NCBI GenBank assembly: GCA_013002205.1
Contig: JABDKN010000242.1
Location: forward strand, 1 to 39,300
Direction of reading: 5' to 3'
Length of the DNA stretch: 39,300 bases
From: Granulosicoccus sp.
GTDB lineage: Bacteria; Pseudomonadota; Gammaproteobacteria; Granulosicoccales; Granulosicoccaceae
Shown one piece after another: positions 1,305-8,235 of the stretch. The notes beneath the pieces were generated by a model. It saw only the letters and a list, made by a program, of their open reading frames with translations. It did no database searches and was not told where the DNA came from. Both the position numbers and the translations under genes were made by a program. Position 1 is the stretch's first letter, and the number at the start of each line of letters is the position of its first letter.

Positions 1305-2621
1305 TCAGCTGGTTTTCTTGCTCAGAATGGTCAGTCCCTTGAGTAGATTCAATGCCTCGAACAGTTGATAGTCGTCGTACACCAGGTTGTCTTCGTTACC
1401 TGCCTCCGCGTCCCCGGGCGAGTCGTCACCGGACCCGTCGACAGTCGTGTTGGTCAGGGCGCCCCGCAGGCTGGACTCGGTCAGTGGTGAGAAACTCTCA
1501 CTCTCTGGGCGGGTCCACGAGCCGGGTTTGGTGGCAATGTCCGGCTCGATACCGAGAGCCTGGATGGAGCGACCATTGGGTGTGTAGTAGCGAGAGGTGG
1601 TCAGTTTGACCGCACCGCCGGTGGGCAGGTCCTGAATGGTCTGTACCGAGCCCTTGCCGAAAGTCTTGCTGCCCAGCACTATGCCGCGACTGTGATCCTG
1701 CATGGCGCCTGCGACGATTTCAGAGGCCGATGCCGATCCCCCATTGACCAGGACCACCAGCGGTGCGCCGTCCAGCACATCACCGTCGGTAGCGTCATAG
1801 CGTAGCTTGGAGTCGGATTCCCGGCCGTCGGTGTAGACGATCATGCCGTCGTTGAGAAAAGCATCGGACACACCCACGGCACCCGACAGTACACCTCCCG
1901 GGTTGTTTCTCAAGTCCAGCACCATGCCCTTGAGCGTGCCGCCGGACTCCTTTTTCATGGCCTTGATGGCCTTGAGCATGTCCGAGGTGGTTTTTGTCTG
2001 GAAGTTTGAAATTCGCAGATAGCCATAACCGGGTTCCAGCATGCGATTGCGCACGCTGGTGACCTTGATGATGTCCCGTACGATGTCGATGGTCAGCGGC
2101 TTGTCTGCACCCTCGCGAATAACCGTGAGCGTCAGCGTGCTCCCCGGCTTGCCGCGCATGAGTTTCACGGCATCGTTCAGGGAAAGTCCCTTGACGGGCG
2201 TGTCATCCAGGCGAATGATCAGATCACCCGCCTGAATGCCTGCACGCGCTGCCGGTGTATCGTCGATCGGGGAGACCACCTTGACGAAACCATCTTCCAT
2301 GCCCACCTCGATGCCCAGGCCACCGAACTCCCCGGTGGTACCAATTCGCAGCTCGTTGAATTCTTCTGTGTTCAGGTAGGCCGAGTGCGGATCCAGGCCG
2401 TTGAGCATGCCGCGGATGGCGTGTTCGAGCAGTTCCTCATCGGATACTTCCTCGACGTAGTCGCTCTTGATGCGCGTGAACACATCGGTGAATGTGCGCA
2501 TCTGTTCAAGCGGCAGTTCGTTGGCGCTGCGGGCCCCCAGCACGTGCTGACCGAGTGTCAGCGATCCACCGATGACTGTGCCAATCAGTACCAGCGTAAC
2601 CGATCGTGAATTTACCTTCAT
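1305..2621 (-). CDS. ctpA: C-terminal (tail-specific) processing protease, S41 family
   Basis: A 438-residue periplasmic serine protease that trims or degrades proteins from their C-termini. Order of parts: an N-terminal membrane or signal segment (residues 7-24), an N-terminal helical region, a PDZ domain (about 99-170) containing GGLGIEV, then the S41 catalytic core. In the core, GGSASASE (294-301) and FGKGSVQ (321-327) give a Ser298/Lys323 dyad whose 25-residue spacing equals that of plant CtpA (Ser372/Lys397). The frame is open further upstream to 2786, but the ATG at 2621 is preferred. It has GGAG about a dozen bases upstream, it puts the hydrophobic segment at the N-terminus, and it leaves 148 bases after the envC stop. 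Length is normal for gammaproteobacterial CtpA. Family knowledge: such proteases often work with a lipoprotein adaptor and control peptidoglycan hydrolases. The position after envC agrees with that, but specific targets are inference. Confidence 0.93.
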   Translation of the reverse strand: MKVNSRSVTLVLIGTVIGGSLTLGQHVLGARSANELPLEQMRTFTDVFTRIKSDYVEEVSDEELLEHAIRGMLNGLDPHSAYLNTEEFNELRIGTTGEFGGLGIEVGMEDGFVKVVSPIDDTPAARAGIQAGDLIIRLDDTPVKGLSLNDAVKLMRGKPGSTLTLTVIREGADKPLTIDIVRDIIKVTSVRNRMLEPGYGYLRISNFQTKTTSDMLKAIKAMKKESGGTLKGMVLDLRNNPGGVLSGAVGVSDAFLNDGMIVYTDGRESDSKLRYDATDGDVLDGAPLVVLVNGGSASASEIVAGAMQDHSRGIVLGSKTFGKGSVQTIQDLPTGGAVKLTTSRYYTPNGRSIQALGIEPDIATKPGSWTRPESESFSPLTESSLRGALTNTTVDGSGDDSPGDAEAGNEDNLVYDDYQLFEALNLLKGLTILSKKTS

Positions 2622-2769
2622 TGACGTATTACTCCGGGGTTTAATTTCTCGCGTTTGGCAAAACAGGACCCACTTCCCGTCCAAATGGGGCGATCCTCGC
2701 AGCATTCGGTCAGTCGAATGCAACTGTGATGACATTGAGTCTAACGGGTTCTGTACCCGAAACGATGAC

Positions 2770-3981
2770 TTACTGGCGCCTGGCAACCTGAAAATCAGGA
2801 CTCAACCACTCTTCCGGGTCCACAGCTTCGGCATTGTGTCGAATTTCAAAGTACACACCGCTGTCGTTCTGACCATCTGAGTCTCCAACAGTTGCAATTG
2901 TTGCACCGGAGTCAACCCATTGTCCTGTGGGGACCGTCACATTACGATTTCCACCGTACAGGCTGGTATAGCCATCACCGTGATCCACGATCACCAGCAT
3001 ACCGAAGCCTTGCAGGAAATCACTATAGACCACTTCTCCATCGGCTACCGCCCTGACACGCTGGCCCTGGCTGGCGCGGATGAACAGGCCTTGCCAGCGA
3101 AGTTTTCCGACTGATTTGATGTCACCAAAGTGTGCTGAGACGACACCGCTGACGGGTGCCGGATAGCGACCTTTCCCGGCCGCAAAATAACCCGACTGAG
3201 CACTTTGCAGGGCCTTGAGCTCTTCCATGAGGTTCTGCAGTCGCTGCTGATCCGCCCGCAGTTCAGCAACCGTACGCGTCTTGCTGTCCAGTCCGGCCTC
3301 GACCTCACCGAGCGTCTGCTGCTTCGCAATGGCGGTGCTGGCATAGTTTTCTCTTTGTTGGCTTGCTTTTTTCTTGATGTAATTCAGCCAGTTACGGTCT
3401 TTCAGTGCGCTCTTCTGAGCATCCCTGAAGCGTGCCAGGATGGCACTCTGTGCGGTGATGGCTGCATTTTGCGCCTTGAGTACGTGTTCGGTGTAGACCG
3501 CCAGGCGATCGGCCAGCGCCGGGTCATCATTCTGCAGGACGATTTTCAGGGTGGTCTGCTGGCCGATTGCCTGGGCGTTGCGCAGCGCTCTGGCCAGAGC
3601 CTGCTCTCTGGCCTCCACGCCAGACCGGGCATCGGCGATCGTGGATTCCAGAGAATCGAGTTTCTGGTTGAATCTGGCGATATCTCTGTCCAGTTGCCGT
3701 AAGCGTTCCTCGCGTTCGCCTACCCGGGACTGTGCTGTTTCCAGCGCTTGCCGAAGCTGCTCCTTGAGCACCCTGCTGCTGGCAATCTCGTCATCCAGCG
3801 CCTTGAGTCTGGCTGACGTATCGAGAATCTGTCGTTCCACGTCCTCGAGAGTTCGCGGTGTTTCCGCCAGACTGTCGGCAGGCAGCAGGAGCGAGCCGCT
3901 CAGGCACGCCAATACGACTGCCAGGGCCGGTAGCACTGGTCTGCAGGGATGTTGGCGGTACGTGCGCAGCTTGCGGAGCAT
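2770..3981 (-). CDS. envC: Murein hydrolase activator EnvC (coiled coil plus degenerate LytM domain)
   Basis: A 403-residue exported protein: signal peptide (residues 1 to about 39, hydrophobic core followed by SLAE), long charged coiled coil (about 40-250), then a C-terminal M23/LytM fold (about 280-395). The LytM zinc ligands are missing. Where active enzymes have H-x3-D the protein reads WQGLFI, the YxHL motif is YTSLYG, and the final HxH motif is VYFEIRH. This matches the pattern of E. coli EnvC, which is a non-enzymatic activator of the amidases AmiA and AmiB at the division septum. The amidases are not in this window. The frame extends to a GTG at 4044, but ATG 3981 is chosen because it begins directly with the positively charged n-region of a signal peptide. 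No strong Shine-Dalgarno is visible for either. The gpmI gene often seen upstream of envC-ctpA in related bacteria is absent here. Confidence 0.92.
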   Translation of the reverse strand: MLRKLRTYRQHPCRPVLPALAVVLACLSGSLLLPADSLAETPRTLEDVERQILDTSARLKALDDEIASSRVLKEQLRQALETAQSRVGEREERLRQLDRDIARFNQKLDSLESTIADARSGVEAREQALARALRNAQAIGQQTTLKIVLQNDDPALADRLAVYTEHVLKAQNAAITAQSAILARFRDAQKSALKDRNWLNYIKKKASQQRENYASTAIAKQQTLGEVEAGLDSKTRTVAELRADQQRLQNLMEELKALQSAQSGYFAAGKGRYPAPVSGVVSAHFGDIKSVGKLRWQGLFIRASQGQRVRAVADGEVVYSDFLQGFGMLVIVDHGDGYTSLYGGNRNVTVPTGQWVDSGATIATVGDSDGQNDSGVYFEIRHNAEAVDPEEWLSPDFQVARRQ

Positions 3982-4068
3982 AGGGATAAAGTGTAGCCGC
4001 CATCGGCCGTCGTCGCCACCGATGGCACAGTCCAGCCAGGGCACTGGTGGACGGCTATGCCCGGGCGT

Positions 4069-4515
4069 CTACTTGCCGGCGTGGGGATGACGGAATGGTT
4101 CCCTGGCATGGCGCTGGCGCATCCAGTTCAATGATTTGAAAACCTGCGGCCGGGTGGCGAGATAGATCAGCAGGCGGTGCTTGCCCGGAAACTGTGCCAC
4201 CGACAGGCCCAGTAACAGCATGATGACGCCAGGGCCGGGCGTGACCATCATGATCAGGCCCAGGCAAACGATAAACAAACCCAGTATTGCTCTGAGGCCT
4301 GAGAACATAAGGCTGGGTACATCGCGCCTGAGAGGCTGGTCAAGTCGGTTCAGCAGGTAATCGGCGGGCAGGTGCGACACGACACGGGGAATCGCCAGAA
4401 CGGTCAGGGCCAGTAAGACGACCGAGCCGCTCGCCAGTGAGCTGACGACCAGCGAATTCTCGGACAGCCAGCTAAGTAGCGTATGCATAGGGGCCAGAAC
4501 AGTATCAGGTGCCAT
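4069..4515 (-). CDS. PGPGW-type small integral membrane protein
   Basis: A 148-residue protein with an N-terminal hydrophobic segment and a second long hydrophobic stretch that runs into TPGPG, followed by a hydrophobic segment and a basic tail. The TPGPG turn between membrane segments is the hallmark of the putative transmembrane PGPGW family, although here the Trp is replaced by Val. Function of the family is unknown to me. Start is uncertain. ATG 4515 has a weak GGAT eight bases upstream. ATG 4488 (139 residues) and TTG 4527 are alternatives. It lies about 30 bases after the stop of the metzincin-like gene and 87 bases before envC, all on the same strand, so co-transcription with the envelope cluster is likely. 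There is no visible catalytic motif, and a structural or transport role cannot be decided from sequence. Confidence 0.75.
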   Translation of the reverse strand: MAPDTVLAPMHTLLSWLSENSLVVSSLASGSVVLLALTVLAIPRVVSHLPADYLLNRLDQPLRRDVPSLMFSGLRAILGLFIVCLGLIMMVTPGPGVIMLLLGLSVAQFPGKHRLLIYLATRPQVFKSLNWMRQRHAREPFRHPHAGK

Positions 4516-4544
4516 CGCATGATCCAATGCCCACGGCCGAGCCT

Positions 4545-5321
4545 CTATTGTATCCAGTTGATCTCGCGTGCAGTGAACGGATTCACGATCACGCTGCGCA
4601 GACTCTCTGCCATGTAGGCGTTGCCCGGCGACGTCGGGATACGCCCGGCCATGATCTCTGCATTGCGCTGTGGGTACAAGGGCATCCGTGTCGGATTGGC
4701 AAAACCCACGGGCAGCATTGGCGAACCGTAGGCATCGTACTTGTCGATGGCGCCCACTGTGTGCAGCAGTTCGTGCGCGATCACGACATTATTCTGCGCG
4801 GTCTGCCTGTCCAGGCTATAGGCATAGACCAGCCCCATCAGACCTTTCTGCATGCCCAGGGAATGCTTCAGAGGCTGATTGTCCTCACCGGTCTGGTAGA
4901 CGATGAACAGGCGTACTCGAGTGAGCTCGCCTTCATCGGGTGTGTTGCGCCATGCCCAGTAGCGAAAGCGCAGCCCCCAGGCCAGTGCGTCGACGGCATT
5001 GGCGTTGTCGGGGAAGTGAGGAGGCTGTTGTGCGATGGACTGGCCGAGCGTAACGTCGAAGGGCCTGGCAAGGTCCAGGTCGTGGCGTCTGGCTTCGCGC
5101 TCCCCCCAGGTGTTTATCGGGGAAAAATCCTCATCGGTAAGTTGCTGTATATAGGCATCGGTCGCCAGATGGCCATCGCCATTGATCGGGTAGATGACGG
5201 CATTCAGGGTCTGATTCCAGTTGCGTGTATAGACGTGCTGATGGGCACTGGTGAAGCCGACAATGGTAAGGCAGGCGAGCAGCAGGGTGATCCTGACCGT
5301 GGCAAATCGGGGAAGGGTCAT
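4545..5321 (-). CDS. Membrane-anchored or exported metzincin-like zinc metalloprotease of unknown family
   Basis: A 258-residue protein. Seen: a short basic start and a hydrophobic segment (residues 10-26) that can serve as signal peptide or anchor, and HELLHTVGAID at 183-193. This reads exactly as HExxHxxGxxD, the extended zinc site of metzincins whose third ligand is Asp, as in snapalysin-type enzymes. A further 31 residues on is AEIMAGR (221-227), whose Met224 is a fair candidate for the Met-turn that closes metzincin active sites. I do not recognise a characterised family. The assignment rests on these two motifs in correct order and spacing. The longer frame to 5426 lacks a good reason to be coding, so ATG 5321 is used, though no clear Shine-Dalgarno precedes it. 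Neighbours are a PGPGW protein, EnvC and CtpA, which suggests a periplasmic, envelope-related protease. Substrate unknown. Confidence 0.7.
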   Translation of the reverse strand: MTLPRFATVRITLLLACLTIVGFTSAHQHVYTRNWNQTLNAVIYPINGDGHLATDAYIQQLTDEDFSPINTWGEREARRHDLDLARPFDVTLGQSIAQQPPHFPDNANAVDALAWGLRFRYWAWRNTPDEGELTRVRLFIVYQTGEDNQPLKHSLGMQKGLMGLVYAYSLDRQTAQNNVVIAHELLHTVGAIDKYDAYGSPMLPVGFANPTRMPLYPQRNAEIMAGRIPTSPGNAYMAESLRSVIVNPFTAREINWIQ

Positions 5322-5571
5322 CGGCGAGGAAACTCGGATGGAAGCCGTTGTTGCTCCATCGAGGAAGACGGCTGCATCATGGTTGAGATGGTTGGTGTAG
5401 GCTTCCTCCTGTTGGCGGAACGCCAAGCAAAAGTCTTGAGCCCGGACTGCGGCGACGGTGCAATCAGTCTCGAAGCATCTGCTGCAAGCAACGACTGTTT
5501 CACAGTCCGTTGCGCGGGTACCCGCTGCACCTTGGTTGACAGGAAATCAAAGAGAAGGAAATCAATTGAAC

Positions 5572-8235
5572 ATGAACAAACCGGTAGCCGTTCACCGACT
5601 GGACTATCAACCAGTCAACTGGCTGATCGAGCACGTCAGCCTGGATTTCGAATTGGAACCTGCTGCCACGGTAGTTAGCAGTCAGCTGGCGCTGGCACGT
5701 GTTTGTGGAATGGCGGACGCGCGCGCCGGTGCCCAGTTCACCGGTATCGCCCTGCAAGGCAGCGACTTAAAGCTTCTTTCAGTGGCGGTGGACGGTGTTG
5801 AACTGGCTGCCTGCGACTATGTTCAGACGGATACCGAACTGCGAATTGCTGACCTGCCGGAGCGGTGCCTGTTGAGCATCGTCACCTGCATCGATCCCGA
5901 CTCCAATACTGCGCTGGAAGGTCTGTACCGTACCGGTGGCAACTACTGTACGCAGTGCGAGGCCGAGGGTTTTCGCAAGATTACCTACTATCTCGATCGA
6001 CCCGATGTCCTGTCCGTATTCGACGTCACGATAACGGCTGATCCTGTCCAGTGTCCTGTCCTGCTGTCCAATGGCAACCTGTTGTCGATCGAGACGCTGG
6101 GTGATGGACGTCACCGTGCTCATTGGCATGACCCGCATCCAAAGCCGAGTTATCTGTTTGCGCTGGTTGCCGGTGTGCTGGCACACATCGAGGATCACTA
6201 CACCACGGTCAACGGGCGCGAGGTGCTGTTACAGATCTATGTGGAGCAACACAATATTAAGCGTTGCGACTATGCCATGCAGTCACTGAAGGCTGCGATG
6301 CGCTGGGAGGAGGACGTGTATGGCCTCGAGTATGACCTGGAGCGATTCATGATCGTGGCGGTCGACGACTTCAATATGGGTGCCATGGAGAACAAAGGGT
6401 TGAACATATTCAACTCCCGGTATGTCCTGGCCGATGCCCAGAGTGCTACCGATGCGGATTACATGGGTATCGAATCCGTCATTGCACACGAGTATTTTCA
6501 TAACTGGACGGGTAACCGGATCACCTGCAGGGACTGGTTCCAGTTGAGCCTCAAGGAAGGTTTGACCGTGTTTCGTGACCAGAGCTTTTCCAGCGACCGG
6601 CATTCGGCAAGCGTCAAGCGCATCGAGGACGTCCGCCTGCTACGGTCCCGGCAGTTTGCCGAGGACAGTGGCCCCATGGCGCATCCGATCAGGCCAGACA
6701 GTTACATCGAGATCAACAATTTCTACACATTGACTGTCTACGAGAAAGGCGCCGAAGTGATCCGCATGTTACATACACTGCTCGGAGCCGATCGCTGGCG
6801 CCGGGGGATGGACGTGTATGTCAGCAGGCATGATGGCAGCGCGACGACGTGTGATGCCTTTGTCGATGCCATGCAGTCCGTTTCCAATATCGATCTGAGC
6901 AGGTTCCGGCGCTGGTACTCGACGGCAGGTACGCCGCGCATTCACGTCTGCGAACACTACGATGCACGACAGGCACGTTATCAGTTGACACTGACACAGT
7001 CCTGTCCGGACACGCCTGGACAACGTGACAAGCCACCATTGCATATTCCGCTGGTGATGGGGTTGCTCGACAGGCAGGGCCGTAACATGCCACTGGGCAC
7101 CGGGCGGCCGGCTGGCCAGGTTGAGAAAGGCAAGCTGCCAGAGTCGGTGGTTCTCGATCTGCTTGAAGTCACCGATACCTACACATTCGATGAGATTCAC
7201 GAGAAACCGGTGCTGTCACTACTCCGGGGATTTTCTGCCCCGGTGCGGTTGGTCCACGACGTGCCGGACGAGACACTGTCCTTCCTGATGGCTCACGACA
7301 GCGATGCATTCAATCGATGGGATGCCGGACAGCGTCTGGCAACGCGGGTAATCACCGGCCTGTATGCCAATGACAGCGTTGCTGATGCCTCGCTGGATTC
7401 ACTGGTGCAAGCCTGGCACGCCATACTCGACGATGAGTCGCTGGACACGGCGTTCAAGGCTGAAGCATTGTCGCTGCCGACGATCGATACGCTGGGAAGC
7501 GAGTTTGACCAGGTGGACTACCCGGCTCTTGCCAGAGCCCACGCGACGCTGGCTGCCCACCTGGCAAAGGCACATACCGGGGCACTGACACGCATGGTCA
7601 CACACTCACGCGGCACTGGTCTGGATCTGCTGGATCCTGTTGCCATGAGTACCCGGAAAATGGCCAACACCGCACTGTCGCTGCTGAGCTATCTGCCTGC
7701 AGCGCACTGGGCGGCTCTGGCGGAACGACAGTATGATTCTGCTGACAACATGACCGACAGAGTGGCGGCACTTGCAGTGCTGTGCCACTCTGACAGCACG
7801 GCACGTGTGCGTTGCCTCGATGACTTTCGCGCACGCGCTGCCGGCCATCGCCTGGTCGTCGACAAATGGTTTGCCGTGCAGGCCATGGCCCGGCGGGAGA
7901 CTATCGTGGACGATGTCATTGCACTGACTGAACACCCGGATTTCGAGCCGCAGAATCCTAACCGGCTACGGTCGCTGGTTGCCAGTTTTGCCCTGAACAA
8001 CCCAGCGGGCCTGCACGGCGATGGAGGTCGTGGTTATCGTTTCCTGGCCGATCAGGTGATCGATGTGGACAGGCGAAATCCCCAGCTTGCCGCCGGGCTT
8101 GTGGCGCCATTGGGCCAATGGCGGCGACTACCGCCGGACGCACGGCGCCAGATGAAAAATCAGCTTCTACGAATCATTGAAATCGATCCGCTGTCAGCTG
8201 ATGTGTACGAACTGGTCAGCAAGGCACTGCAGTGA
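5572..8235 (+). CDS. pepN: Aminopeptidase N (M1 family)
   Basis: An 887-residue zinc aminopeptidase that removes N-terminal residues from peptides in the cytoplasm, a late step of intracellular protein turnover. Seen: the substrate-anchoring GAMEN (residues 270-274), the zinc site HEYFH (306-310) and the third ligand Glu329, at the normal spacing of M1 enzymes. The length is close to E. coli PepN (870). No signal peptide is present. Start choice: ATG 5572 follows AGAAGGA by about 11-13 bases. An in-frame TTG at 5566 has better ribosome-site spacing and would add two residues. The longer open frame from 5458 lies in the 5' region shared with the divergent metzincin-like gene. No strong sigma70 promoter could be fixed; a TTGACA occurs at 5536 but lacks a suitable -10. 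Confidence 0.96.
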   Translation: MNKPVAVHRLDYQPVNWLIEHVSLDFELEPAATVVSSQLALARVCGMADARAGAQFTGIALQGSDLKLLSVAVDGVELAACDYVQTDTELRIADLPERCLLSIVTCIDPDSNTALEGLYRTGGNYCTQCEAEGFRKITYYLDRPDVLSVFDVTITADPVQCPVLLSNGNLLSIETLGDGRHRAHWHDPHPKPSYLFALVAGVLAHIEDHYTTVNGREVLLQIYVEQHNIKRCDYAMQSLKAAMRWEEDVYGLEYDLERFMIVAVDDFNMGAMENKGLNIFNSRYVLADAQSATDADYMGIESVIAHEYFHNWTGNRITCRDWFQLSLKEGLTVFRDQSFSSDRHSASVKRIEDVRLLRSRQFAEDSGPMAHPIRPDSYIEINNFYTLTVYEKGAEVIRMLHTLLGADRWRRGMDVYVSRHDGSATTCDAFVDAMQSVSNIDLSRFRRWYSTAGTPRIHVCEHYDARQARYQLTLTQSCPDTPGQRDKPPLHIPLVMGLLDRQGRNMPLGTGRPAGQVEKGKLPESVVLDLLEVTDTYTFDEIHEKPVLSLLRGFSAPVRLVHDVPDETLSFLMAHDSDAFNRWDAGQRLATRVITGLYANDSVADASLDSLVQAWHAILDDESLDTAFKAEALSLPTIDTLGSEFDQVDYPALARAHATLAAHLAKAHTGALTRMVTHSRGTGLDLLDPVAMSTRKMANTALSLLSYLPAAHWAALAERQYDSADNMTDRVAALAVLCHSDSTARVRCLDDFRARAAGHRLVVDKWFAVQAMARRETIVDDVIALTEHPDFEPQNPNRLRSLVASFALNNPAGLHGDGGRGYRFLADQVIDVDRRNPQLAAGLVAPLGQWRRLPPDARRQMKNQLLRIIEIDPLSADVYELVSKALQ

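Follow-up and report, generated by a model that had tools for sequence, protein, structure and literature searches.

A conserved gene for a putative membrane-tethered metzincin-type protease next to envC and ctpA in Granulosicoccus

What does the gene upstream of the envC and ctpA genes of Granulosicoccus encode, and does its product work together with EnvC and CtpA? We analyzed a stretch of 39,300 nucleotides from Granulosicoccus sp. (GenBank assembly GCA_013002205.1, contig JABDKN010000242.1, positions 1 to 39,300 of the forward strand), which we call the window. Based on the letters of this DNA, the initial annotation had proposed a metzincin-like protease that carries the rarer Asp as third zinc ligand, is exported or anchored and belongs to no known family. 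It had furthermore considered the protein as a third envelope protease or regulator acting with the EnvC/CtpA pair.

The gene and its family

Translation of positions 4545–5321 on the minus strand from an ATG yields a protein of 258 residues (P0002). The HExxHxxGxxD motif and the AEIMAG segment appear as initially read, with Met224 sitting 31 residues past Asp193 (Table 1). Inspection of the sequence by eye revealed no evident ribosome-binding site at this ATG, which is therefore the likeliest start but not a proven one. A 20-codon reading frame on the same strand (5318–5380) overlaps the ATG with its end; its stop recurs at this place in loci L002–L005, whereas all 12 further loci checked lack it. 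On the plus strand, a reading frame of 389 aa (4509–5678) spans the whole gene. It was ruled out as a translated gene because in 11 of the 12 relatives checked this frame is interrupted by stops, so that the minus frame is the gene; the antisense frame is probably an effect of composition. A single match at E < 0.001 was obtained in the window's own genome, and the gene is thus single copy there.

Table 1. Positions of the gene, of predicted features of its product and of neighbouring genes in the window
Feature	Position	Strand	Basis
Gene of the putative metzincin-like protease, 258 aa, P0002	4545..5321	-	translation; homologues in same genus and class
HELLHTVGAID, residues 183–193: predicted zinc site (H183, H187, D193) and catalytic base (E184)	4743..4775	-	translation, alignment
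Y195, two residues past the Asp (Asp+2): candidate tyrosine switch	4737..4739	-	98/98 rows; spacing as in IgAse, 1c7k and two M6-type sequences
AEIMAG, residues 221–226: predicted Met-turn (M224)	4644..4661	-	M224 97/98, E222 98/98
Residues 6–26: predicted N-terminal membrane anchor	5244..5306	-	hydropathy, alignment
Residues 250–256 (TAREINW): conserved C-terminal segment, possibly C-terminal helix	4554..4574	-	E253 97/98, W256 95/98; helix only at low confidence
PGPGW small membrane protein (neighbour, partnership not implied)	4069..4527	-	PF09656, 29.5 bits, cut-off 23.3
EnvC-like M23 protein (neighbour)	2770..4044	-	PF01551, E 6.7e-25
CtpA-like S41 protease (neighbour)	1305..2786	-	PF03572, E 1.2e-55
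PepN-like M1 aminopeptidase (divergent upstream neighbour)	5572..8235	+	PF01433 and PF17432 on the 5458–8235 reading frame

Besides the window's own genome, 18 of the 23 others of the same genus and 4 of 15 more distant ones contain homologues. Across the class we found the gene in 75 of 369 genomes, or 66 of 314 when only those of good quality are considered, both counts including the window's own genome and one remnant. Beyond the class, three further genomes of the phylum carry it as well. Two more matches in the phylum (G758 and G760, E 7.7e-4) were dropped, as they cover only residues 43–90 and lack the motif. Apart from Granulosicoccus, the named carriers comprise Methylophaga thiooxydans and two Neptuniibacter. 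Four records of Acinetobacter baumannii contain a family gene too, and in one of them it is annotated as a hypothetical protein beside topA; these records are filed as plasmids, but their size of 1–4 Mb suggests the chromosome. Viral contigs contained no relative. Searches of open-licence PMC papers found none of five sequence fragments from the motif region, and the family was not described in the titles and abstracts among the matches listed for Acinetobacter metzincins or the accession, for membrane metzincins and for a Granulosicoccus or EnvC metallopeptidase.

Identity to the window protein goes down to 31%, and the motif is retained across the 98 aligned homologues: H183, E184 and H187 in all 97 rows spanning these positions, G190 in 96 of these 97, and D193 in 97 of 98 rows, the exception being the C-terminal remnant L136. 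M224 is kept in 97 of 98 rows, with Ser in L131; Y195, G206, Q218 and E222 are invariant (98/98). Outside the motif, 96 or 97 of 98 rows retain R120, S154, W35, P100 and P101, and the distance from the Asp to the Met is 29–32 residues throughout the family. Conservation in homologues was one of the two points on which the initial annotation had staked its reading, and the motif withstood it. Genome G083 contains two divergent copies, L131 and L135 (33% and 34% identical to the window protein), of which the former carries the Ser and the latter a Met in the Met-turn. In genome G208 only the remnant L136 is recognizable (a 98-residue frame, query residues 193–246), as if the gene were decaying there. 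The homologues constitute a conserved family of wide distribution without a family model of its own.

The sole strongly hydrophobic stretch of the protein lies at the N-terminus, where the 19-residue hydropathy mean is 1.93 from residue 6; the best stretch after residue 40 reaches 0.65. Within the predicted anchor helix R10 (93/98), L14 (93/98) and L18 (94/98) are conserved, whereas most neighbouring positions vary more. Being four residues apart, these three would share one face of the helix. Their conservation exceeds what a plain anchor would need and thus suggests a specific contact. A lipoprotein reading of the lipobox-like L14-L15-A16-C17 was rejected: Cys17 is present in only 5 of 53 rows and is followed by hydrophobic residues. 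From W35 onward, 85 of the 96 full-length rows contain no Cys.

Gene order around the putative protease gene

The PGPGW protein, the EnvC-like protein and the CtpA-like protease are encoded on the same strand as the putative protease, as the initial annotation had noted. For the divergent PepN-like aminopeptidase the ATG at 5572, which follows AGAAGGA (by eye), is the likelier start. The gene gpmI, described initially as absent, indeed does not stand beside the cluster, but the genome contains one match to iPGM_N (PF06415) elsewhere, on contig C262.

The cluster is tight, with 17 and 24 nt separating the ends of reading frames and with the EnvC and CtpA frames overlapping. Such an arrangement would suit a protein dedicated to EnvC and CtpA, a third protease or regulator which might, for example, trim one of the two in order to tune cell-wall cutting. 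Within the genus this is matched by EnvC lying downstream on the same strand at all 18 loci (PGPGW is present in 16 of them and the divergent PepN in 15), but among 33 loci outside the genus, read with 1.5-kb flanks of which some are cut by contig ends, EnvC is adjacent in only 3 and PepN in 6. The contiguous order protease–EnvC–CtpA does recur in L063 and L067; on the whole, EnvC and CtpA are near the protease gene in 5 of 25 larger loci (L026, L027, L063, L066 and L067), two of the five being Granulosicoccus, and absence carries little weight in three of the 25 (L072, L073 and L076), which comprise 5.8–8.3 kb only. PMC12569750 places ctpA of P. aeruginosa in an envC-ctpA-PA5135 operon and describes the degradation of cell-wall endopeptidases by CtpA. 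When 20 chosen neighbours at other loci were scanned against Pfam, their functions were either unrelated or unassigned, which also holds for the A. baumannii record; CobU, BipA, a cytosol aminopeptidase, RecQ, ScpB, ABC-transporter ATPases and cytochrome c were among them.

No fixed gene partners of the protease emerged across the loci read, and gene order rules out a dedicated partner of EnvC and CtpA as a general rule. The partnership considered initially finds no support in its general form. Since EnvC and CtpA are rarely near the protease gene outside the genus, the cluster looks like a local arrangement. Co-expression with EnvC and CtpA is possible; a dedicated partnership with them is unlikely.

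Relation to known metalloproteases

Of 53 members, 51 were scanned singly against Pfam-A, and in none of these 51 did a model reach its cut-off, which agrees with the initial view of a family without known assignment. A search for M7, M10, M12 and M57, as had been recommended, gave none of these at its cut-off. PF02031 (M7) matched 4 of 53 members with 12.4, 14.4, 12.5 and 13.6 bits (cut-off 25). PF13583 (M12B) matched 2 of 53, reaching 18.5 bits against a cut-off of 22 in L042, where the match spans residues 164–224 and includes both the HExxH at 182 and the Met at 223. PF13688, another M12 model, matched 3 of 53 and stayed below its cut-off of 27 bits as well (L003 with 12.8 and L036 with 12.6 bits). 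Neither M10 nor M57 was among the 23 Pfam models matched by the 53 members at E up to 10, a scan in which the HMMER filters drop most matches above 0.1, and PF05547 (M6) was likewise absent from the models matched. The non-metzincin model M56 was weakly matched by three members. An eCIS_core match of P0002 (E 0.15) was discarded because it covers only the HExxH stretch.

Among NCBIfam models ten matched the 53 members, some plainly by chance, and none matched the window protein. The commonest weak match of any profile was TIGR03296 (M6 domain), found in 35 of 53 members with a best E of 0.0063; NF033628 (snapalysin) was found in 7 members (best E 0.074) and the non-metzincin FzlA in 4 (best E 0.009). 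As far as sequence goes, the weak M6 matches would favour the Asp-type reading. Profile–profile comparison gave 77.8% against 20 M12-type sequences, 70.4% against an M48 control (29 sequences), in both cases for the HExxH region only, and 32.2% against two M6-type sequences; it does not discriminate between M12, M48 and M6. The PDB, searched by sequence and by profile, gave no match apart from a chance one (E 0.69). Among the genomes of relatives only 1 matched M7 and 4 matched M6, which does not suffice for a good profile. The window's own genome (G000) also contains two separate reprolysin-like frames over the PF13583 cut-off, on contigs C292 and C129 (L142 and L155).

Structure models were computed from six sequences, for the full-length protein and, without templates, for the domain (residues 34–258), and reached mean pLDDT values of 59.7 and 58.8, respectively. 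The domain model reaches block means of 67–92 over its first 60 residues and about 50–65 in the HExxH helix; residues 188–258, which comprise the surroundings of the third ligand and the Met-turn, are below 50 in both models. In the domain model a strand (39–47), a helix (63–79), a strand (88–92), a helix (109–126) and two strands (136–143 and 162–168) precede the HExxH helix (175–188), an order that resembles the upper subdomain with its mixed sheet, backing helix and active-site helix, described in PMC12237041. Foldseek returned for the domain model ADAM/TACE, fragilysin, snake-venom metalloproteases or OgpA in all 50 matches listed. The best had an E of 7.8e-4 and a probability of 0.99 and was the only one listed below E 0.001; TM-scores to the query were 0.32–0.40 with rmsd values of 6–12, and these low TM-scores weaken the fold evidence. 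VIA-align, which warns of common arrangements at Z values at or below 8, listed 49 of 50 matches at Z 6.5–8.0, aligned to model residue 160 or beyond. These were the proteins of the Foldseek list or ADAMTS, 6o38, BF3526 and 3p1v, all of them metzincins. Its top match was a GPI-transamidase chain (Z 8.4). The full-length model had no significant PDB match, the best (E 0.22) being a chaperone–substrate complex, presumably that of the metzincin CpaA. Snapalysin was not among the 50 matches listed by either structure search, which excludes nothing. The models partly show a metzincin fold of the N-terminal half.

The metzincin clan is characterized by the motif HExxHxxG/NxxH/D, a Met-turn and a C-terminal helix, as outlined in PMC12237041, and the aligned family contains this motif as well as a conserved Met C-terminal to it. 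The same paper names snapalysins, thuringilysins and IgAse as enzymes with an Asp ligand, IgAse having a Tyr near the zinc at Asp+2. With the M6 thuringilysins (TIGR03296, PF05547) the family shares HExxHxxGxxD, and with two M6-type sequences (L087, L089) the pattern D-x-Y-D with a Met shortly after; in the latter two, however, the Met comes sooner than here and the frames are 514–888 residues long. Snapalysins (M7; 1c7k, 4hx3) have the same HExxHxxGxxD, the Tyr at Asp+2 and E-x-M-x-G at the Met, and by eye 1c7k also shows V/I-N and then Trp near the C-terminus. In contrast, their chains have 132–134 aa, the Met of 1c7k follows 10 residues past the Asp (about ten in snapalysins according to PMC3890501), and the tail shown contains two Cys, whereas the family has a much longer segment, no conserved Cys and a membrane anchor. 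The igalysins (M64; IgAse and 3p1v, the latter at Z 6.5 in the list above) resemble the family in the Asp ligand, the Tyr at Asp+2 and a long segment before the Met-turn, but have an extra residue before the Gly (HExxHxxxGxxD), and IgAse is large and multidomain (PMC12237041). Adamalysins, ADAMs and bacterial M12-like proteins account for most of the fold matches listed for the domain model, but their third ligand is a His where the family has Asp. Mini-zincins (PF06262, Acel_2062) share HExxHxxGxxD; they differ in their size of about 110 aa, in ending near the motif and in having no Met-turn, as stated in PMC3890501.

The invariant E222 and the low confidence of the models around the zinc site leave some room for a glu-zincin, in which E222 rather than D193 would be the third ligand and M224 would be structural only. 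The M48 control, which nearly equals M12 in the profile–profile comparison, would fit such an enzyme, but the combination of D-x-Y and E-x-M-x-G is also found in snapalysin, an Asp-ligand enzyme according to PMC12237041. Since furthermore G190 and D193 are almost as conserved as E222 at metzincin spacing, the commonest weak profile match is an M6 model and the fold matches listed are of metzincin type, we consider a glu-zincin improbable. Least probable of all is a protein that retains the site without cutting, as a pseudoprotease or a zinc-binding scaffold: we found no activity described for any family member and L131 carries Ser in place of the Met of the Met-turn, but E184 is kept in every covering row, and the Glu of HExxH is required for catalysis, not for zinc binding.

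A probable membrane-tethered protease of the envelope

The best explanation, to which we assign a probability of about 0.7, is a metzincin-type protease tethered to the inner membrane, which would cut membrane-proximal envelope proteins; we infer zinc binding, catalysis, topology and substrate. The assignment to the metzincins relies mainly on the motif, the spacing of the Met, the Tyr at Asp+2, the repeated weak M6, M7 and M12 matches and the partial fold. The initial proposal of a metzincin-like, Asp-type and probably membrane-anchored protease is supported. Its N-terminal helix would act as a signal anchor holding the protein N-in/C-out. As the first strand of the domain is predicted to start about 12 residues past this helix, a pro-domain would not fit in between and the active site would lie near the membrane. 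H183, H187 and D193 would bind one zinc, E184 would activate the attacking water, Y195 may stabilize the intermediate and M224 would form the base under the zinc. The enzyme may then cut one envelope protein or a few of them in a membrane-proximal stretch, either as a sheddase or as a quality-control protease. We file the family as metzincin-like, with M6 and M7 as the nearest families with an Asp ligand and with membership shown in neither.

A more far-reaching proposal, which we put forward tentatively and at somewhat less than even odds, is that of a new metzincin family: Asp-type, devoid of a pro-domain, tethered in the inner membrane, recognizing a membrane partner or substrate via the R10/L14/L18 face of its helix and serving in many Gammaproteobacteria, Acinetobacter baumannii among them, as a stand-alone sheddase of the periplasm. 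Of the class genomes sampled, about a fifth (66 of the 314 of good quality) carry the gene, which has only weak NCBIfam matches. If its product is an active membrane-tethered metzincin, the envelope proteases known from well-studied species would gain a further one, in a lineage to which a clinical pathogen belongs, and the rare Asp ligand would be represented by a compact enzyme that apparently has no pro-domain.
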